Source of the DNA: Kineococcus rubinsiae
GTDB lineage: Bacteria > Actinomycetota > Actinomycetes > Actinomycetales > Kineococcaceae
NCBI RefSeq assembly: GCF_011839805.1
Contig: NZ_VWPY01000032.1
Location: 1-52,357, forward strand
DNA length: 52,357 nt
Reading direction: 5' to 3'
The notes beneath the pieces were generated by a model that saw only the letters and a program-made list of their open reading frames with translations, did not search any database and was not told the origin of the DNA. Made by a program: the position numbers and the translations under genes. Positions within the stretch are counted from its first letter, which is position 1. The number at the start of each line of letters is the position of its first letter. Below, one piece after another: positions 16,238-26,314 of this stretch.

Positions 16238-16730
16238 GGACACCCGCCGCAGCCACGGGCGCATCGGTACCCCGAACCGCACCCGCGCCCCGTGCTCTCC
16301 GCCCCCGTCAGCGGAGGATGACTCCGCCGGCACGGATCGCCTCCACCAGCCTCGATGGCGCGACGACGGTTCACGGCGCGGGGCTGTCACCGTCGCCGGG
16401 ACCGCCGCGTTCGCGACCCCGGTGGTCGCGTGTGGACGCTCAGCGGATCAGCGACGACAGCGGACCCCGGCCTGTGCGCCTCCGTGGGGGGCCGGTCGAG
16501 CAGCCACCGTCACCACGTCGACGACTGGGCTGCTGGGACGAGCAGGTGCGTCGACTGGTCCGCGAGGTCGCCGACGTGGTGACGGTTGCGGCCGCGGCCT
16601 CGGCGTGATCCCGGACGTGGTGTTCCCCGGGGTCCCGGGTACACCACCGGGACTGCTGGGACGGCAGGCCTGGAGCCGCACCTCCCGTTGTCCGACCGGC
16701 GCCGACACGACCCTGGTCAGGACGCAACAA
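16238..16730. other. Gene-free stretch after the polyphosphate operon
   Basis: No frame here has a ribosome binding site with consistent third-position G/C, and the open frames on both strands read as Arg/Pro/Ser-rich shadows. A 7-bp hairpin (GTCCCGG 16632-16638, CCGGGAC 16647-16653) is the only structure seen. It may be decayed DNA at the outer edge of the island. Confidence 0.5.
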
Positions 16731-16809
16731 CGGCCCTGACCTGCACGAGTGTTAGTCAGGGCCGTGACTGTCGCTGTCTCAACGAGTGTCCGGAGGGGGA
16801 CTCGAACCC
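16731..16809 (-). repeat. Decayed copy of tRNA-Leu 3' end and terminator (att-like)
   Basis: Bases 16770-16802 are identical to 26213-26245, which covers the last 16 bases of tRNA-Leu(GAG) and its downstream flank. The match continues with one mismatch to 16809. The adjacent terminator is also copied: CGGCCCTGAC (16731-16740) pairs with GTCAGGGCCG (16755-16764). The T-stem partner strand is broken and nothing upstream resembles the rest of a tRNA, so this is not a working gene. It has the position expected of the far attachment site of an element inserted at the tRNA. Confidence 0.7.
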
Positions 16810-18013: not shown

Positions 18014-18229
18014 TCAGCGGCGGTGCCGGCGGAGGACCGGAGGCGCACTGCAGACGCCGACACCGAGCATCACCAGCACCGTCACCGGAGGCAGCCACCA
18101 CACCGGCAGTCCCGCCGCACGACCGCCGGTGATGACCAGCAACATCGCGGCGATTCCCGCGACCATGCGCCAGTCGTCACCGATGACGAGGTCCCGGACG
18201 ACGTCGAGGACCACCCGCAGCGCCCTCAC
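18014..18229 (-). CDS. Small two-helix membrane protein coupled to the Ftr1-like gene
   Basis: A 71-residue protein too short to stand out by length. It begins MRALRVVLDVVRDLVIGDDW, then has two hydrophobic helices (VAGIAAMLLVITGG and WWLPPVTVLVMLGVGV) and a basic end (VLRRHRR). Its GTG start (18229-18227) overlaps the stop of the upstream membrane protein as GTGA, so it is translationally coupled. Codon use is strongly coding-like. It is probably an accessory subunit of that transporter-like protein; I do not recognise the family. Confidence 0.65.
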   Translation of the reverse strand: MRALRVVLDVVRDLVIGDDWRMVAGIAAMLLVITGGRAAGLPVWWLPPVTVLVMLGVGVCSAPPVLRRHRR

Positions 18230-18984
18230 GACCCCACCCGCGCGGCCGCGTCCACGCGCGGGGTCCGCGCACCGAGCACCAGGGTGTAGCCGACGGCGAC
18301 GCACGCGGTGAACACGACGAGCACCGGCAGGGCGGCGTCGGCACCGGGCCAGACCACCCCGGCACCCTCGCCGCTCCAGAACATCCCGAAGCTGGTCAGC
18401 AGCACACCGACGACGAACTTCAGCTGGTTCTCCGGCACCCGCGACAGCGGGCCCCGGACGACGAGGCCGGCGAGAGCGACCACGACGACCGCCGCGGACG
18501 CCCCGATCGCCGCCAACCCGATGCGCCCGGCGTTGGCACCGAAGGTCAGGACGATGAAGACCACCTCGAGGCCTTCGAGGAGGACGGCCTTGAAGCAGAG
18601 CGTGAACGCGTAGACGTCGACGGTGGACGAACTGCTGGTCGCCTGGGACCGTGCCGCCTCCGCCTGCGCCGCGAAAAGGGCCGACTCGTCGTGCAGGGCC
18701 TTGCGCCCGGCGGCCCGCAGGACCGCCTTGCGCAGCCACTGCAGCCCGAAGACCAGCAGCAGCGCGCCCACGACGACGCGGACCGCTTGCAGGGGGACCA
18801 CCGTCAGCGCCGGCCCCAGGACCGCCACGAGCACCGCCAGCGCGGCGAGGCCCGCGAGGACGCCGAGTCCGCTGGAGCGCCAGCCCCGCGTCACCCCCAC
18901 GGCGAGGACCACCGTCAACGCCTCGACGGCTTCGACGGTGCAGGCCAGGAAGACGGAGAGGAAGAGCGCGGAGGTCGCGGTCAC
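18226..18984 (-). CDS. Membrane protein with Ftr1-like EGLE motifs
   Basis: A 252-residue protein with about seven hydrophobic helices in two similar halves. Each half opens with an acidic helix: TVEAVEALTVVLAVG near residue 14 and LLEGLEVVFIVLTFG near residue 130. These resemble the REGLE helices of Ftr1 iron permeases, where the Glu residues bind iron, but the Arg is absent. It resembles the uncharacterised COG4280-type membrane proteins. Start GTG 18984 lies after CGGAGC. Given the metal-linked ZIP gene next door, a metal transport role is plausible, not shown. Confidence 0.6.
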   Translation of the reverse strand: MTATSALFLSVFLACTVEAVEALTVVLAVGVTRGWRSSGLGVLAGLAALAVLVAVLGPALTVVPLQAVRVVVGALLLVFGLQWLRKAVLRAAGRKALHDESALFAAQAEAARSQATSSSSTVDVYAFTLCFKAVLLEGLEVVFIVLTFGANAGRIGLAAIGASAAVVVVALAGLVVRGPLSRVPENQLKFVVGVLLTSFGMFWSGEGAGVVWPGADAALPVLVVFTACVAVGYTLVLGARTPRVDAAARVGS

Positions 18985-19018: not shown

Positions 19019-19918
19019 TCATCCCCGGTCCGCTTCGCCGTCGCCAGGCCGGGACTCGGTCGCGAAGCGGGCGGACGACGGGGACGGCGCAGCGCGGCGC
19101 ACCGGCAGGTCCACGCCGGCAGCCCCGAAAGGCACACCCTCCACCTGCCCCTGCACGTCGCCGCGCCTCACCGCCAGGTACGCCACGAGGGCGAGGATCA
19201 CGACGAGGGCGACGAGGGTCACGGGGCCGTCTCCGAAGCCGACACCACCACCGACGGAGGGTTCCTTCGCCAGCCAGTCGGCGAAGGAGGCCCCCAGCGG
19301 GCGGGTCAGCACGTAGGCCACCCAGAACGTCGCGACCGGGTTCGCCCCGAGTCGCCACGCCACGAGTGGAACCGCGATGGCCGCAGCGAAGAGCAGACCC
19401 GAGGGCAGGAAGCCGAGGTGCATCGTCAGCCCGGTCAGGTCCCCGACGGCCGTGCCCAGCGCGAAGGTGGCGACGACGGTGGCCCAGTAGAACCGCTCCC
19501 GGCGCGCGGTCGTGATGCTGTGGATGTCGAGGGTGCCCTCGCTGCGCCGCCACCAGGCGAACAGGACGATCACGACCACCCCGTAGAACGCCGACGTCAC
19601 GTAGTAGGACAGACCCGTCACCACGTGCAGGACGTCGGCGACGATGGTCCCGAAGACGGCGATCATCGCGACGGCGGACCAGTAGCGGACCGCGTGGTAG
19701 CGCGTCGAGCGCAGCTGCCACCGCAGGGCGAGGGCGAAGCCCCCGACGCCGACCACCCCGCCGAGGACGAGGTTCGTGGTGCCGAGGAAGTCCGAGGCGG
19801 CTTCCCCCATGCCGGTGGTGAGCACCTTCACCACCCAGAACAGGACGGTGATCTCCGGGACCTTCGCCGCGACCGGAGGACGCGCACGGGGGAACAGCTG
19901 CGGGGGCGTGCGGGCCAT
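19019..19918 (-). CDS. COG4705-type membrane protein, paralogue 1
   Basis: A 299-residue membrane protein with about eight helices and a charged C-terminal tail of about 50 residues. It contains four spaced Gly-Asp signatures: MGEAASDFL, FGTIVADVL, LGTAVGDLT and RPLGASFADWL. The loop SEGTLDIHSI is shared with the paralogue at 20662. It resembles uncharacterised COG4705 membrane-anchored proteins. ATG 19918 follows GGAGACG, and an 11-bp-spaced GCTGA repeat sits at 19985-20001 in its promoter region. The shorter C-terminus of the paralogue suggests the tail is not essential to the fold. Confidence 0.7.
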   Translation of the reverse strand: MARTPPQLFPRARPPVAAKVPEITVLFWVVKVLTTGMGEAASDFLGTTNLVLGGVVGVGGFALALRWQLRSTRYHAVRYWSAVAMIAVFGTIVADVLHVVTGLSYYVTSAFYGVVVIVLFAWWRRSEGTLDIHSITTARRERFYWATVVATFALGTAVGDLTGLTMHLGFLPSGLLFAAAIAVPLVAWRLGANPVATFWVAYVLTRPLGASFADWLAKEPSVGGGVGFGDGPVTLVALVVILALVAYLAVRRGDVQGQVEGVPFGAAGVDLPVRRAAPSPSSARFATESRPGDGEADRG

Positions 19919-19984
19919 GGCGTCGTCTCCAGACGTCGGGGGGGGGAGGCGGTCGAGGGGTCGTTCCCATGCTGCCCCCGGGTC

Positions 19985-20001
19985 GCTGAACCGCGGCTGA
20001 G
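19985..20001 (-). promoter_or_regulatory. Direct repeat GCTGA-N6-GCTGA, site 1
   Basis: GCTGAACCGCGGCTGAG holds two GCTGA half-sites 11 bp apart, one helical turn, as bound by OmpR-family dimers. It lies 67 bases before paralogue 1 (start 19918). The same pattern recurs at 21515 and 24871. Confidence 0.55.
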
Positions 20002-20038
20002 AGCGTCCGACGCGGACCGGGACGCGGGCGCCCGTCGG

Positions 20039-20665
20039 TCAGCGGCGCGAGGAGGCTCCCCGCCGGGCCTTGAGGAGTTCGACCAGCACCGGCAGCAGCG
20101 AGACCACCACGACGACGGCGATGATGGGGAGCAGGTAGGCGTCGATCCCGGGGATCTGCCCGCCGAGCACGTGCCCGGCCAGGGGAACGCCGAGGGCCCA
20201 CAGGAGCCCACCGACGCACTGCCACAGGGTGAAGGTGCGGGCCGGGACGCCCACCGTCCCCGCGAGGGGGTTCATCAGCGTCCGCACGACCGGGATGAAG
20301 CGGGCCAGCACGATCGCCTTGCCGTGCCCGTAGCGCCCCAGGACGGCGCGGGCGCGCTGCACCCCGGCGTAGCGGCGACGGTGCTCGGGACGCTCCAGCA
20401 GAGCCGGGCCGGCGGCCCGGCCGATGAGGTAACCGACCTCTGCCCCCAGGAGGGCACCGCCGGCTGCAGCCAGGAGCACCGGGACGAGAGACAGGTGGAC
20501 CGAGGAGGTGACGCCCGTCGCCGTCAGCAGGCCGGCGGTGAACAGGAGCGAGTCACCGGGCAGGAAGAACCCCACGAGCAACCCGGTCTCGGCGAACAGG
20601 ATGACGAAGACACCCAGGGTCCCGAACGACGAGAGCAGGTGCTGCGGGTCCAGCAGCCCGGTCAC
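20039..20665 (-). CDS. DedA-family (VTT/SNARE-associated) membrane protein
   Basis: A 208-residue DedA protein, a family of envelope lipid transporters or flippases needed for membrane homeostasis. Landmarks are the early acidic helix FAETGLLVGFFLPGDSLL, EVGYLIGRAAGPALL, the FIPVVRTLMNPLAG motif with its Arg, and the closing amphipathic segment. About five helices are present. The GTG start (20665) overlaps the stop of the upstream COG4705 paralogue (GTGA), so the two are co-translated. A second, broken DedA copy lies at 24502-24860. Confidence 0.88.
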   Translation of the reverse strand: MTGLLDPQHLLSSFGTLGVFVILFAETGLLVGFFLPGDSLLFTAGLLTATGVTSSVHLSLVPVLLAAAGGALLGAEVGYLIGRAAGPALLERPEHRRRYAGVQRARAVLGRYGHGKAIVLARFIPVVRTLMNPLAGTVGVPARTFTLWQCVGGLLWALGVPLAGHVLGGQIPGIDAYLLPIIAVVVVVSLLPVLVELLKARRGASSRR

Positions 20666-21492
20666 GACGACGACGCCGCAGCGGAGACGCGGCGCCGGTC
20701 GGGGGCGTCCATCCTGCTGAAGCTCAGGTAGACGACCACCGCCAGGATCGCCGCGAGGAACAGGACGCTCGTCACGGTGGTGCCCAAGCCGAGGCCGCCG
20801 TCGGCCCGGTCCTGGGACAGCAGGTCACCCAGGGACGCACCCAGCGGGCGGGTGAGGACGTAGGCCGCCCAGAAGGTTCCGACGGCGTTCAGGTGCAACC
20901 CGAAGCGCAGGACGGCGACCACGGCGATCGCGACCGCGAACAGGACGACGGAGGAGAAGTAGCCGATCCCGGTCGTCTCGGCCACGAAGTCACCGGCTGC
21001 GGTTCCCAGCGCGAAGGTGAAGAGGATGGCGAGCCAGTAGAAGGCCTCCCTCCGGGGGCTGTCGATCGCGTGGATGGACAGCGTGCCCTCGACCCGGTGC
21101 CAGATCAGGAACGTCGCGGTCAGCAGGACCGCGAAGACGATGGTGGACACGAGCAGCGGCACGCCGAGGCCGTCGGTGAGGTTGTCGGTGAGCAGCGTCC
21201 CCACGACGCTGATGAGCACCACGGCCAGCCAGTAGACCGGGGGCCGGTAGCCGCGGGTGCGGAACTGCGCCACCAGCACCACCGCGAGCAGCACCGTCAT
21301 GACGACGCTGGTCACGGTCAGACCCAGGCCGAGGGTCTCGTTGAGGTAGTCCGCTGCGGTCTCGCCCACCGTGGTGGCCAGCACCTTCACGATCCAGAAG
21401 AACGCGGTGACCTCGGGCACCTTGTTCGCCGCCGTGCGCAGGGCGGCACCGGTGCCGCGCCGGGTTCCGTCCGGACCAGGAGTCTCAGTCAT
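20662..21492 (-). CDS. COG4705-type membrane protein, paralogue 2
   Basis: A 276-residue membrane protein, clearly homologous along its length to the protein at 19019 and lacking that protein's long tail. The four repeated signatures are VGETAADYL, VGTLLTDNL, LGTAAGDFV and RPLGASLGDLL, and the shared loop reads EGTLSIHAI. ATG 21492 is preceded within about 40 bases by the GCTGA direct repeat (21515-21531). It is translationally coupled to DedA downstream. Function is unknown; the link with DedA, PAP2 and a two-component system suggests envelope or metal stress. Confidence 0.7.
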   Translation of the reverse strand: MTETPGPDGTRRGTGAALRTAANKVPEVTAFFWIVKVLATTVGETAADYLNETLGLGLTVTSVVMTVLLAVVLVAQFRTRGYRPPVYWLAVVLISVVGTLLTDNLTDGLGVPLLVSTIVFAVLLTATFLIWHRVEGTLSIHAIDSPRREAFYWLAILFTFALGTAAGDFVAETTGIGYFSSVVLFAVAIAVVAVLRFGLHLNAVGTFWAAYVLTRPLGASLGDLLSQDRADGGLGLGTTVTSVLFLAAILAVVVYLSFSRMDAPDRRRVSAAASSS

Positions 21493-21514
21493 GACCCCAG
21501 CGTGCCGAGCGCCT

Positions 21515-21531
21515 GCTGAACCCCTGCTGAG
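21515..21531 (-). promoter_or_regulatory. Direct repeat GCTGA-N6-GCTGA, site 2
   Basis: GCTGAACCCCTGCTGAG has the same 11-bp spacing and orientation as site 1, and lies 23 bases before the start of paralogue 2 (21492). Confidence 0.55.
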
Positions 21532-21628
21532 TGACGTCAGGCAGCCCCGGGTCACCTGTGGGACCAACGCGGGCCGAGCCGGGGCGCCGCGGAGGCCGCC
21601 CACCCGCCCCGGTGCGGGCGCCGTCGCC

Positions 21629-22120
21629 CTAGCCGCCGCGGACCGTGAGGTAGGAGAAGTCGCGCTGATCGGCAGCGAGGTAGCGGTCGGCCCCACGCGT
21701 CATGTCGGGCAGGAGCTCGGTGGGCGCGACGGTCGCTCCCCCACCGCCCGCCGGCGCCCAGCTGGCGAACGACACCATCCCGCGGTGCATGTCGAGCTCC
21801 ATCCCCTGCACCGCTCCGACGGCGGTCAGCGCCTGGGCCAGGTGCACGAGGTCGAGCCCGTTCCCGGCTACGTAGAGGAGGTTCCCCGCCCGGTCCGTGC
21901 CCAGCGCGGAGCGCCAGGTGAACTGGGTCTGGTTGCGGGCCGTGCCCCACCGCCCACCGGCGTCGGTGCCCAATCCGGGAACGCTGCGCCCCCCGTCGAC
22001 GATCAGGTGCAGGTTCTGCCGCGCGGCGACCACGTGCGGCGTGAGCGCGACACCAGCGCCGAGAGCACACACGGACAACCGTCCCGCCTTGTCGACGACG
22101 GCGGTCGCGAGCCCGTCCAC
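21629..22120 (-). pseudogene. N-terminally truncated phosphodiester glycosidase (DUF2233/NAGPA-like)
   Basis: The 163-codon frame reads as the C-terminal half of a phosphodiester glycosidase: HVVAARQNLHLIVDGGR, PGLGTDAGGRWG, TFWRSALGTD-like TWRSALGTDRAG, GMELDMHRGMVSFASW, ELLPDMTRGADRY. Homology already starts at the first codons (FSVDGLATAVVDKAG continues upstream of the GTG at 22120), while the signal peptide and first half expected in a protein of roughly 300-400 residues are missing. The response-regulator promoter begins there instead. It is most simply a truncated gene left by rearrangement. Confidence 0.6.
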
Positions 22121-22182
22121 GCTGAACGCAGAGGACGCCGGTCTCCAAGGGCGAACGCCGGGGCGGCGGTAGCGTGGTCGAG

Positions 22183-22869
22183 GTGCGGATCCTGCTCGTC
22201 GAGGACGAGACCACCCTCGCCACCACCCTGGCCCGGGGACTGAGCGGCGTGGGGTTCACGGTGGAGATCGCGCCCGACGGGGGAACCGGTCTGCGCCGCG
22301 CCCAGGAGGGTTCCTTCGACGTCCTCGTGCTCGACATCATGCTGCCCGTCCTCAACGGCTACGAGGTGTGCCGGAACCTGCGGACTGCGGGGGTGTGGAC
22401 CCCCGTGCTGATGCTCACCGCCAAGGACGGCGAGTACGACGAGACCGACGCGTTCGACCTGGGCGCCGACGACTACCTGCGCAAGCCCTTCGTCTTCGAC
22501 GTGCTGGTGCGGCGCCTGCGAGCCCTCGTCCGGCGCAGCGCCCCGGAACGCCCGACCGTCCTCGAGGTGGGCCCGATCTCGCTCGACCCCGTCGGGCAGC
22601 ACGTCCACCGCGACCGCGAGCTGGTGCGCCTGACCGCACGCGAGTTCCAGGTCCTGCACTACTTCATGCGCCACCGGGGCGCGGTCGTCACCAAGACGGA
22701 CATCCTCGAGAACGTGTGGGACGTCAACTACGACGGCGACCACAACGTCGTCGAGGTGTACGTCGGCTACCTGCGGCGCAAGCTCGGGCGGCACACCATA
22801 GAGACCATCCGCGGGGCCGGCTACCGCTTCAGCGATCCCGACGCGGCCGCGTCGAACCGTCGGGCCTGA
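22183..22869 (+). CDS. OmpR/PhoB-family response regulator
   Basis: A 228-residue response regulator. The receiver domain begins RILLVEDE, has the phospho-acceptor D51 in LVLDIMLP, Thr in MLTAKDG and Lys in YLRKPF. A winged-helix DNA-binding domain follows (LTAREFQVLHYFMRH, ENVWDVNYDGDHNVVEVYV, IETIRGAGYRF). GTG 22183 is chosen because TAGCGT (22170-22175) lies exactly seven bases before it, a leaderless promoter; GTG 22174 would fall inside that box. Its partner kinase is encoded on the opposite strand and their 3' ends overlap by 41 bp. The 11-bp direct repeats in this region are its likely targets. Confidence 0.9.
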   Translation: MRILLVEDETTLATTLARGLSGVGFTVEIAPDGGTGLRRAQEGSFDVLVLDIMLPVLNGYEVCRNLRTAGVWTPVLMLTAKDGEYDETDAFDLGADDYLRKPFVFDVLVRRLRALVRRSAPERPTVLEVGPISLDPVGQHVHRDRELVRLTAREFQVLHYFMRHRGAVVTKTDILENVWDVNYDGDHNVVEVYVGYLRRKLGRHTIETIRGAGYRFSDPDAAASNRRA

Positions 22870-24403
22870 CCGGCACGCCAGCGAACCGGCCCGGGACCTC
22901 GTGTCCGACGGCGGCCGCCCCATCGACCACGCCAGGGTCGTCGGACCCACCCTCGCTGACGAACTCGCCGTCGGCGTCGTCGAGGACGAGGAGGGGCAGC
23001 ACGACCTGGAAGCGGGTCCCCTGTTCCTGAGGCACGACCCGGACCGTCCCTTCGTGGGCGTCGACCAGTTCCCGCACGATCGCGAGGCCGAGGCCGCTGC
23101 CGCCGCTGTCACGCGCCCGGCTCTCCTCGAGCCGGACGAAGCGGCCGAACACCCGGTCCACGTCGGCCGGCTCGATCGCCGGGCCGTCGTTGGCGACTTC
23201 CAGGACGGCCGAGTCGCCCGCTGTCCGCAGCCGGATCTGCACCCAGGACTCCGCGTGGATCACGGCGTTGTCGCTGAGGTTGCGCAGCACTCGGGACAGG
23301 GAATGGGGGTCACCCACCACCCGGGCCGCGACCAGGTCGACCTTGACGCGCACGGCGGACGTGGCCCGCAGTCGCCTCGCCTCCGCGTCCACGAGGTCGT
23401 CCAGGTCCACCTCCTCCGCGCGCACGCGGACGCCGTCGTCGTCGTGGCGCGCGAGCAGGAGGAGGTCGGAGACCAGGCGTTCCAGCCGTCGTGACTCTCC
23501 ACCCACCAGCTCGGCGAGCTCGGCGGTGCTGATCGAGCCGGGGACGGAGGCCGCGATGTCCGCGGCCGCCTGCAGCGTCGCGATGGGGCTGCGCAGCTCA
23601 TGGCTGGCGTCGGCGACGAACTGGCGCTGTGCCCCGGCTGAGGTCTCGAGGCGGGTCAGCATCGCGTTCATGGTCCGGGCCAGCTGGGAGACCTCGTCGC
23701 GGCCCTCGGGGACCGGGACGCGTTCGGCGAGCTGACGTTCGGTGATCCGTTCGACGGTCTGCCGGATGGCCCCGACCGGTCGCAGCGAGCGGCCGACGAA
23801 GACGGAGGTGGCGAGCGCGACCACCAGGAGCAGGATCGGCAGTCCGACCGCCAGGGTGATCTCCGCGATGTGCAGGCTGTCCTCGACGGAGCCGAGGGAC
23901 TGTGCGACCACGACGGTGAACGCCCGGCCGCCGACGGAGCTGCTCACGGCGATCGCACGGTAGGCGTCGTCGTCGAAGCGGACGTGGATGCGGGAGGTGT
24001 CGTTGGCTCCCGGCGGGGGCAGGTCGGTGGTGAGGGGCGGTTCTCCGGCGACCTCCGCGCTGCTCGCCACCACGCTGCCCGTGCTGTCGAGGACCTGGAC
24101 CACGGCGCGGCGCGGCGCGCCCTCGGCGATGGCGGACTCGAGGTCCTCCTGCCCCTCGGGGCCCGGCGTCGCGTCGAAGACGTCGGCGCTCACCTGCGCG
24201 CTGATCCCCTGGGCGATGGCGGTGTTGCTCGAGTCGATCCCCTGAACCAGGTCGTGCTGCAGGGTCATCAGCAGGACGGCGCCCGCACCGGCGATGACCA
24301 CGGCCAGGAGCGCGGTGGCGGCCAGAGCGGAACGGGCCTGTACACCCGCCTCACGCCACCGGCGGGAGGCACTCGCGACGACGTCCCGGAGGAAGTCGCT
24401 CAT
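22829..24403 (-). CDS. Two-component sensor histidine kinase
   Basis: A 524-residue kinase: a TM helix (about 27-47), an extracytoplasmic sensor of about 140 residues, a second TM (about 190-212), HAMP, then the H-box FVADASHELRSPIATLQ with the phospho-His, N-box LRNLSDNAVIHAE, G1 VANDGPAI and G2 GGSGLGLAIV. About 55 extra residues follow the ATPase domain, Asp/Gly-rich and probably unstructured; the last part is antisense to the response-regulator end. ATG 24403 follows GAGGAGGA. Sensor ligand is unknown; neighbours point to envelope or metal stress. Confidence 0.9.
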   Translation of the reverse strand: MSDFLRDVVASASRRWREAGVQARSALAATALLAVVIAGAGAVLLMTLQHDLVQGIDSSNTAIAQGISAQVSADVFDATPGPEGQEDLESAIAEGAPRRAVVQVLDSTGSVVASSAEVAGEPPLTTDLPPPGANDTSRIHVRFDDDAYRAIAVSSSVGGRAFTVVVAQSLGSVEDSLHIAEITLAVGLPILLLVVALATSVFVGRSLRPVGAIRQTVERITERQLAERVPVPEGRDEVSQLARTMNAMLTRLETSAGAQRQFVADASHELRSPIATLQAAADIAASVPGSISTAELAELVGGESRRLERLVSDLLLLARHDDDGVRVRAEEVDLDDLVDAEARRLRATSAVRVKVDLVAARVVGDPHSLSRVLRNLSDNAVIHAESWVQIRLRTAGDSAVLEVANDGPAIEPADVDRVFGRFVRLEESRARDSGGSGLGLAIVRELVDAHEGTVRVVPQEQGTRFQVVLPLLVLDDADGEFVSEGGSDDPGVVDGAAAVGHEVPGRFAGVPVRPDGSTRPRRDR

Positions 24404-24501
24404 CGGGTCCTCCTCGCGTCGCGGATCCCCACCATGATGCCTCGCCGCCACGTCGCGCCGGGGCCTGCCGTGAAGGCCCTGCAGACCGCGGTACGCCGCG
24501 G

Positions 24502-24860
24502 TCACGGCCGCGTGCGCCTCAGGTGACCAAGGGCCTGGCACCGGGCGCCCCCAACCCGGCGGCGGTGGACCACCGCGGCGACGAGCAGGGCGTCGACCAC
24601 GGCGACGACCGCGAGCCCGGTGCCCCCCGCCCCAGGAGGCGGGCTGCCGTCGCGGAGGAAGCACCGGCTGAGTAGCCGACGAGCACCAGAGCCGCCGCCC
24701 AGCTGAGACCACCGAGCACGTTGCAGACGGCTGACCGCCGGTAGGGCATGCCCCCCCGGCCAGGGCTGCGGTGACCGCGCGCAGGAGCGCCGTGGACCGC
24801 CCCGAGAACACCGCGGCACCGCGTCGGCGATCCACCAGCAGTCGGGCCCGCGCCACCGCC
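24502..24860 (-). pseudogene. Decayed DedA-family gene (frameshifted, 5' truncated)
   Basis: DedA-like sequence is spread over three frames. The first reads RRRGAAVFSGRSTALLRAV (from about 24835), then LAG; after a run of seven G (24751-24757) the match moves to GMPYRRSAVCNVLGGLSWAA and LVLVGYSAGASS. A third frame supplies GTGLAVVAVVDALLVAAVV to the end. The N-terminal half is absent. The first shift can be explained by slippage in the G-run. The GCTGA repeat at 24871 lies directly upstream in promoter orientation, as for the intact genes. Confidence 0.6.
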
Positions 24861-24870
24861 GCCCACCGTC

Positions 24871-24887
24871 GCTGAACCTCCGCTGAG
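24871..24887. promoter_or_regulatory. Direct repeat GCTGA-N6-GCTGA, site 3
   Basis: GCTGAACCTCCGCTGAG, with 11-bp spacing, lies between the broken DedA gene (minus strand) and the PAP2 gene (plus strand, start 24993). Its orientation relative to DedA matches sites 1 and 2; it may also serve PAP2. Confidence 0.55.
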
Positions 24888-24992: not shown

Positions 24993-25886
24993 GTGCCGGA
25001 ACCAGAGCAGGCCCGTGGCGAGGCGCACCGGTCGACCGGACCGCGCGGGTACGACCTGACCGGGCGGCTCTCCGAGAGCCGCGCTCAGGACTTCGTCGGT
25101 CGCCGGGACCTCACCCACTGGCCCAGCACCGCGGGGCGACGACTCGTCCACGTGGCGCTGCGGCTGGGACACCGGCTGGCGCCCCACCAGGTGATGCTGC
25201 TGACCCTGGGCATCGGCCTGCTGCTCACGGCAGCCCTCGCGGCCCTCACCGACGGCATCTACGACAGCGTCGTGGAGGACGACGGGATCGCCGCACTGGA
25301 CCACCCCGTGCTCGCCCTGGCGATGCGGCAGCGCACGCCGCTGCTCGACTCGTGGGTCACGGGCTTCACGCACGTGGGCGGTCCCGTGGGGATGCCTGTC
25401 CTGGCCGCCGCGACAGCGATCGGCCTCTCCGTCGCGTGGCGACGCCTCTCGCCCGCGGTGCTGATCGTCTCCACGATGCTGGGGTCCCTCGCCCTGACCG
25501 TGGCGGGCAAGGCGGCCGTGACCCGGGCCCGCCCACCGCACGTCGACGCCGTGCCTCCGTACGAGTTCGGCTTCTCGTTCCCCAGCGGGCACTCGCTGAA
25601 CGCCGCCGCCTTCGCGGGCATACTGACCTACCTGCTGCTGCGTCGCCTGCGCCGGACCTGGGCGCGCCGGCTCACCGTGGTCCTCGCCACCGCGTTCGCC
25701 ACGGCGATGGGGCTCAGCCGGGTCTTCCTCGGCCACCACTGGCTCACCGACGTGCTCGTCGGCTGGGCCCTGGGCCTGGCGTGGCTGAGCGTCGTCATCA
25801 CCAGCCACCGCCTGTTCCTGACCGTCTACCGGAACTCACCGAGCTCCCACCGCGCCCGTCCTCCTCGCCGCGGCCGTTCTACCTGA
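24993..25886 (+). CDS. PAP2-family membrane phosphatase
   Basis: A 297-residue lipid phosphatase (phosphatidic acid or undecaprenyl-diphosphate type). The tripartite PAP2 motif is complete: KAAVTRARPP, FPSGHS, and SRVFLGHHWLTDV with the catalytic His residues. About six helices follow a hydrophilic N-terminus of about 55 residues. GTG 24993 has a strong ribosome binding site, GGAGGTGGA. It is divergent from the DedA remnant and shares a putative regulatory direct repeat with it. It probably acts on membrane isoprenoid or lipid phosphates outside the cytoplasm. Confidence 0.88.
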   Translation: MPEPEQARGEAHRSTGPRGYDLTGRLSESRAQDFVGRRDLTHWPSTAGRRLVHVALRLGHRLAPHQVMLLTLGIGLLLTAALAALTDGIYDSVVEDDGIAALDHPVLALAMRQRTPLLDSWVTGFTHVGGPVGMPVLAAATAIGLSVAWRRLSPAVLIVSTMLGSLALTVAGKAAVTRARPPHVDAVPPYEFGFSFPSGHSLNAAAFAGILTYLLLRRLRRTWARRLTVVLATAFATAMGLSRVFLGHHWLTDVLVGWALGLAWLSVVITSHRLFLTVYRNSPSSHRARPPRRGRST

Positions 25887-26170: not shown

Positions 26171-26210
26171 GAAAGGCCCTGACCGGCACGAGTGCTGGTC
26201 AGGGCCTTTC
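26171..26210 (-). terminator. tRNA-Leu terminator
   Basis: GAAAGGCCCTGACC (26171-26184) pairs perfectly with GGTCAGGGCCTTTC (26197-26210), a 14-bp stem with a 12-base loop, 20 bases beyond the tRNA 3' end. Confidence 0.75.
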
Positions 26211-26229
26211 CCGTCGCTGTCTCAACGAG

Positions 26230-26314
26230 TGTCCGGAGGGGGACTTGAACCCCCACCCACTATACGTGGACTAGCACCTCAAGCTAGCGCGTCTGCCTAT
26301 TCCGCCACCCGGAC
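26230..26314 (-). tRNA. tRNA-Leu (anticodon GAG)
   Basis: Read on the minus strand, GTCCGGG at the 5' end pairs with TCCGGAC near the 3' end, followed by discriminator A. The anticodon stem CTAGC/GCTAG encloses the loop TTGAGGT, giving GAG for CUC/CUU. A long variable arm of class II type follows, and the T-arm is GGGGG-TTCAAGT-CCCCC. CCA is not encoded. Its 3' end is duplicated at 16786. Confidence 0.93.

Follow-up and report, generated by a model that had tools for sequence, protein, structure and literature searches.

Three matching direct repeats of 17 bp lie close together in the genome of Kineococcus rubinsiae, which raises the question of which protein reads them and which genes they serve. 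The repeats, here called boxes 1 to 3, stand in a stretch of 52,357 nt (contig NZ_VWPY01000032.1, positions 1 to 52,357), referred to as the window. Boxes 1 and 2 read into two genes of the DUF347 family (COG4705), for which, to our knowledge, no function is known. An earlier reading of the sequence (the original prediction) took the boxes for the mark of a regulon under an OmpR-family response regulator encoded among them. From sequence comparisons, we estimate a probability of roughly 0.8 that the boxes are OmpR/PhoB-type activator sites of the regulator encoded at 22174 and that they serve DUF347, DedA and FTR1-like genes. The box set itself is real and conserved in a congener, and very probably it is where an activator of the OmpR/PhoB type acts.

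Three boxes confined to one island

The three 17-mers were found exactly where they had been reported (19985, 21515 and 24871), and the half-site starts are 11 bp apart in each. Their sense strand is the minus strand, which corrects the strand given earlier; in this direction, box 1 is CTCAGCCGCGGTTCAGC, box 2 is CTCAGCAGGGGTTCAGC and box 3 is CTCAGCGGAGGTTCAGC. Direct repeats with an 11-bp period fit the tandem operators of OmpR/PhoB-type regulators. The window holds no fourth copy, as predicted: a scan for the exact form gave none, and the next best match, at 23626, has two mismatches.

The home genome (G000; 4,880,137 bases in 119 contigs) was scanned for the exact form CTCAGCNGNGGTTCAGC, which has 15 fixed bases. 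It occurs three times, always in the island described below and within ~5 kb. The original prediction had named many random copies across coding regions as evidence against a regulon, and no exact copy was found outside the island. A first-order Markov model gives an expectation of 0.0002 copies per window and 0.02 per genome (0.17 per genome for the form CTCAGCNNNNGTTCAGC), figures that flatter the pattern because it was taken from the three sites themselves. With one mismatch, there are two genome copies, C2:53659 and C34:49662; at up to three mismatches, there are 333 matches versus 208 for a backwards-read control. The site at C2:53659, which has no -10 element after it, was taken as chance; its 17-mer, CTCAGCGGTGCTTCAGC, recurs at G008:C55:276111.

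The looser form TCAGC-N6-TCAGC was not enriched (14 in the genome versus 12.8 expected; backwards control 0), and with two mismatches its count in the window was at shuffle level (69 versus 64). We dropped it as evidence because its count matches composition; the extra bases of the exact form therefore carry the signal. Chance occurrence in GC-rich DNA would account for the loose form. As an explanation of the boxes we give it almost no credence, since three exact copies lie in 5 kb and none elsewhere in the genome, the boxes are conserved in congeners and the spacing to a -10 element is conserved in relatives.

A -10 element at a fixed distance

Repeats were picked as TCAG (before DUF347 genes also CAGG) with an 11-bp period, ignoring the downstream sequence. 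The hexamer NANNNT followed exactly 10 bp after the repeat at 15 of 18 sites in the genus, at 12 of 18 in class loci of regulator relatives and at 18 of 24 before genes of the DUF347 family (COG4705). At each of the 33 remaining offsets, the three sets gave 0 to 3. Binomial tails at offset 10, corrected for 34 offsets, were 1e-21, 5e-13 and 2e-22, respectively; they treat the sites as independent and overstate the case, because congener sites are related by descent. The class set omits four of 22 repeats with less than 60 nt of downstream DNA, and it retains three repeats inside regulator genes, which lower its -10 count. Among the sites with a -10, a start codon lies 21 to 24 nt past the box in 10 of 15 (genus), 5 of 12 (class) and 18 of 18 cases (DUF347), so many transcripts may be leaderless.

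In PhoB-type promoters, the activator replaces the -35 contacts at a fixed distance to the -10, and a box at a fixed distance upstream of the -10 is what we found. The promoter of box 1 would give a leader of ~44 nt on DUF347a. Box 2 is 22 nt away from the DUF347b ATG, at which its transcript possibly begins without a leader. The promoter of box 3 is probably dead, because the hexamer at its -10 place lacks the A. A protein bound as close to the start codon as box 2 could also block polymerase, and the regulator might then repress from the boxes; the fixed 10-bp spacing, however, would be expected where an activator takes the place of the -35 contacts, and we regard repression as unlikely.

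Box and -10 were combined into one full pattern (YTCAGS-N5-YTCAGS, 10 bp, NANNNT; the first base of the -10 was N in the family scan and B in the class scan). In the home genome, the only two matches were boxes 1 and 2 (control 0). The 12 genomes of the family comparison, our own included, held 20 matches in seven genomes (control 1), among them eight in G009, five in G006 and one each in G001 and G002.

Boxes in congeners

The form CTCAGCNNNNGTTCAGC was present in three of the 12 family genomes, with three copies in our own, three in G009 and one in G011. The single G011 site was taken as chance, as that genome has no regulator relative at E 1e-60. G009 has relatives of the island genes; one of its boxes precedes DUF347a, another DUF347b-DedA and a third an intact second DedA gene (DedA2), which lies behind an intact promoter. 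In G006, boxes precede DUF347b, DedA2 and DUF347a, and one lies at the start of an NAGPA-like reading frame. G002 has one box 22 nt before DedA2, with BacA/UppP downstream, and G001 has one beside the kinase; BacA was found in G002 and G009. DUF347 exceeds the family cut-off in three of the 12 genomes, and five have the regulator at more than 70% identity. In these five, YTCAGSN5TTCAGS occurs 5, 5, 5, 11 and 10 times, versus 1, 2, 1, 1, 3, 0 and 1 times in the other seven; part of these counts is the divergent pair of another OmpR-type system (below).

The three copies might also be products of a duplication that copied one promoter along with its gene, and not have been selected separately. 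DUF347a and DUF347b are indeed paralogues (43% identity), each with a box and a -10 in its promoter. Compared by eye, however, the sequences around the three boxes are alike in little else, with no long alignable flanks seen; box 3 adjoins a gene of another family; and G009 keeps boxes 1 and 2 with their -10 elements while much of the flank differs. Duplication is thus quite improbable.

Box 3 probably marks a former promoter of DedA2. The original prediction had put this site between a broken DedA gene and PAP2. The location stands, but the box faces DedA and points away from PAP2, and its -10 is lost. The DedA2 remnant sits directly behind and partly across box 3. It matches the intact G009 protein well only in the second half, over two frames (the best stretch, in one frame, covers G009 residues 135-181; a weaker stretch in another frame ends at 137); the front half was not found.

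Linkage to the regulator

The gene at 22174 encodes a receiver and a winged-helix Trans_reg_C domain (PF00072 and PF00486, both over cut-off), the domain make-up of the OmpR/PhoB family, and is thus the OmpR-family regulator that had been predicted among the sites. Its start codon was provisionally placed at 22174; the original prediction used 22183.

Relatives of the regulator at E 1e-76 were found in 52 of 296 class genomes. In 29 loci of such relatives, besides the window, TCAG-N7-TCAG occurred 22 times, in 12 of the loci; 14 other spacers gave 0 to 6, and TCGA, the most frequent other four-letter arrangement apart from the reverse complement of TCAG, gave 10. A repeat search over whole regulator loci was discarded because it was swamped by conserved coding repeats. 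The full pattern was present in 115 of the 296 genomes and its backwards control in 23 (hand count); it occurred in 37 of 52 genomes with the regulator versus 78 of 244 without (p 2.5e-7). Among 67 full sites listed in genomes with the regulator (four sites of G098 and G226 are not in this listing), 19 lay within 3 kb of the regulator gene versus 0.086 expected; they come from 14 genomes and include the window's two. Several boxes in relatives lie directly before the regulator's own start, which suggests autoregulation there.

Of 2862 plasmid records with a match, five were examined. In a Mycobacterium avium plasmid, regulator and kinase genes meet tail to tail, and three boxes are each followed at 10 bp by TANNNT; an FTR1-family gene stands behind one of these boxes and a gene of the hemolysin III family behind another. 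Between PAP2 and the regulator, an Arthrobacter plasmid carries two boxes, each with its -10; the single box of an Embleya replicon has no -10. The tail-to-tail order is unusual and recurs in several genera (29 of 49 callable regulator rows; nine uncalled). The 3' ends overlap by 41 nt in the window (22829-22869) and by 19 and 25 nt in the M. avium and Rhodococcus plasmids. Convergent order was rejected as a guide to where boxes occur: a box lay within 2.5 kb in 16 of the 29 rows with convergent genes versus 4 of 20 co-directional rows, but a test on independent pairs gave no support (p 1).

A different OmpR-type regulator might read the boxes, with the linked regulator a bystander. The home genome encodes a candidate on contig C35, ~40% identical to the regulator at 22174. 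It adjoins a divergent pair of TTCAGS-like 11-bp repeats ~40 bp apart (L199 914 and 954, G000:C35), and such a pair is also found in G001, G004, G006 and G009 (L191-L194). The half-site alone therefore does not name the regulator. However, the C35 pair has no -10 at 10 bp, and the full-pattern matches include none of the eight sites that make up the pairs in G001, G004, G006 and G009. In other genera of the class, full sites cluster near regulators related to that at 22174. In G001 and G002, where no DUF347 exceeds the family cut-off, they lie beside the kinase of a 22174-type regulator. We therefore doubt that another regulator reads the boxes.

DUF347 genes elsewhere

We kept the best 80 of 97 DUF347 relatives, and 76 non-redundant upstream regions were used in the repeat search. 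A TCAG/CAGG 11-bp repeat lies within 260 nt upstream at 23 of the 80 loci. In a search of all 4-mers with spacers of 2 to 12, CAGG-N7-CAGG (19), TCAG-N7-TCAG (14) and CACA-N7-CACA (11) came out on top, and the largest count in 50 base shuffles of the same search was 12. A regulator at least 50% identical to that at 22174 was encoded in the flanks of only three of the 23 repeat-bearing loci, so other regulators may serve the remaining ones.

Of 13 Frankia-titled DUF347 loci, three carry TCAGG/CAGG and eight carry another 11-bp repeat (TCACA). The CTCACA-based repeat is found upstream of DUF347 in L102, L109, L111, L113, L114, L116, L128 and L131, and a DedA relative lies near seven of these eight genes. 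The period is the same, and the TCACA repeats have a -10 at offset 10 in only four of 12 cases.

Weighing the evidence

The conserved boxes, the linkage to regulator relatives and the 10-bp lock to the -10 support the regulon that had been predicted. Several observations weigh against it. No TCAG/CAGG repeat was found upstream of 57 of the 80 DUF347 loci; no box at zero to one mismatches accompanies the genome's third DUF347-DedA pair, on C1; and eight paralogous regulators of the genus (60-66%) have no box within ~1.5 kb. In 17 of the 29 class loci, no TCAG-N7-TCAG was found in the ~2.4-3.7 kb covered, and three of the 22 repeats fall inside regulator coding sequence. The Rhodococcus sp. ZPP and M. 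lentiflavum plasmids, two of the five plasmid relatives, have no box, and the window scan gave none before the regulator itself. Full patterns also occur where no regulator above 70% identity is present (two in G003, one in G004) and in the 78 class genomes counted above, and the class-wide association is confounded by kinship. The similar repeats next to the C35 regulator count here as well. Finally, start triplets have a further maximum at offset 14 (9 of 18 sites in the genus), where GTG is formed with the last base of the -10. Our confidence was slightly lowered because the gene at box 3 lacks its front half and because full patterns occur in genomes without the regulator.

On balance, we prefer the boxes as activator sites of the regulator at 22174, and the following scheme is proposed. 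The tail-to-tail kinase would activate the regulator, a dimer of which would bind head to tail on the two half-sites 11 bp apart. The bound regulator would occupy the -35 position and recruit RNA polymerase to the -10 10 bp downstream, and transcription would begin ~7 bp past this element, in many cases directly at the start codon. Box 1 would serve DUF347a and perhaps the FTR1-like permease, which is perhaps co-transcribed with it, as same strand and adjacency suggest; box 2 would serve DUF347b and DedA. In relatives, promoters of this form stand before genes for DedA2, DUF347 and FTR1, and one congener has BacA/UppP downstream of DedA2. Judging from this cargo (DUF347, DedA, BacA and FTR1, with PAP2 nearby), the output is probably envelope lipid-carrier recycling and metal traffic, perhaps in response to lead or another heavy metal. 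As to the inducing signal, our guess is metal or lipid-carrier stress.

Genes around the boxes

The features of the locus are collected in the table. The predicted structure of DUF347b has eight long membrane helices (mean pLDDT 90.9); a fold search against solved structures gave no match at E 0.001 (best 0.41). The NAGPA-like gene and DedA2 are both broken in the island, and their relatives are longer or intact in congeners.

An 81-nt direct repeat (16729-16809 and 26172-26252, 89% identical) includes an inverted repeat and the 3' end of tRNA-Leu(gag), which lies at 26229-26314. Its two copies enclose 9.4 kb that hold the three boxes, an arrangement expected of an integrated island; a profile scan found no integrase family among the genes covered there.

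Table. Boxes, -10-like elements and genes of the locus (window coordinates)
Feature	Position	Strand	Remarks
Box 1, CTCAGC-N5-TTCAGC	19985..20001	minus	upstream of DUF347a, with FTR1/OFeT-like gene behind; kept in G009 with -10
-10-like CAGCAT after box 1	19969..19974	minus	exactly 10 bp past box
Box 2	21515..21531	minus	upstream of DUF347b and DedA
-10-like CACGCT after box 2	21499..21504	minus	10 bp past box; ATG 6 nt further
Box 3	24871..24887	minus	adjoins remains of DedA-family gene
GGCGGT at -10 place of box 3	24855..24860	minus	no A
FTR1/OFeT-like permease (PF16955)	18226..18984	minus	28.3 bits, cut-off 26.9
DUF347a (PF03988, COG4705)	19019..19918	minus	144.5 bits, cut-off 28.2
DedA family (PF09335 VTT domain)	20039..20665	minus	adjoins end of DUF347b
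DUF347b (PF03988)	20665..21492	minus	214.9 bits
NAGPA-like remnant, C-terminal part	21629..22120	minus	22.8 bits, below cut-off of 25; longer copies in G006, G009
OmpR/PhoB-family response regulator	22174..22869	plus	candidate box reader; PF00072 85.6 bits, PF00486 90.6 bits
Sensor histidine kinase	22829..24403	minus	tail-to-tail with regulator
DedA2 remains	24502..24866	minus	tblastn E 3e-21 against intact G009 protein
PAP2-family phosphatase	24993..25886	plus	84 bits; divergent from box 3

Comparison with known systems

The operator was not found in the literature searched, mostly without subscription papers, and COG4705 is named nowhere in it; among the DUF347 matches listed, one concerns bacterial metals. 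We hold it slightly more probable than the contrary that the locus belongs to a so far undescribed stress regulon that spans the actinobacterial class, obeys a strict promoter grammar and is run by a tail-to-tail two-component system; such a regulon would place the regulation of DUF347 within undecaprenyl-phosphate recycling and metal handling. With DUF347 linked to a single regulator and to a promoter that can be read, its function becomes testable via inducer and cargo, and the constant arrangement of box, -10 and start codon can be used to search other actinobacteria for targets.

The PmrA, QseB and CreB boxes of enterobacteria are direct repeats of 5-6 bases, 11 bp apart and near the -35, with half-sites CTTAAG, CTTAA and TTCAC, respectively. 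Our boxes share this layout and differ in their half-sites. In pbr-like lead-resistance loci, an undecaprenyl-diphosphatase and an iron-lead-family permease stand together; compared with this gene pair, the island has PAP2 and OFeT_1, and BacA is present in G002 and G009. The best NCBIfam match of the regulator is to the CztR/SilR/CopR heavy-metal regulators (TIGR01387), and the kinase best matches the partner family. Both score below the curated thresholds (202.6 versus 279.2 bits for the regulator, 214.6 versus 292.55 for the kinase).

CutRS of Streptomyces, like the present pair an OmpR-family two-component system of actinobacteria, is tied to secretion stress, and the CutR site is given as TAWATAAA (PMC12802291); our boxes are GC-rich and lack this sequence, so identity with the CutR site was ruled out. 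In Frankia, DUF347-UppP operons are reported to go up under lead, and metal export with precipitation has been proposed; these operons join DUF347 to an undecaprenyl-phosphate enzyme, and the accessible text describes no regulator or operator (PMC4531530). The PHO box consists of two 11-nt direct repeats bound head to tail by an OmpR/PhoB-family regulator (PhoB/PhoP), with half-sites CTGTCAT in E. coli and GTTCACC in S. coelicolor (PMC4415409). Our boxes are likewise 11-nt direct repeats, but their half-site is YTCAGS, which is not that of the Pho regulon, and regulator and cargo are others. The system would add a new instance to a familiar type of switch; its layout is unusually clean, and its cargo has received no study.

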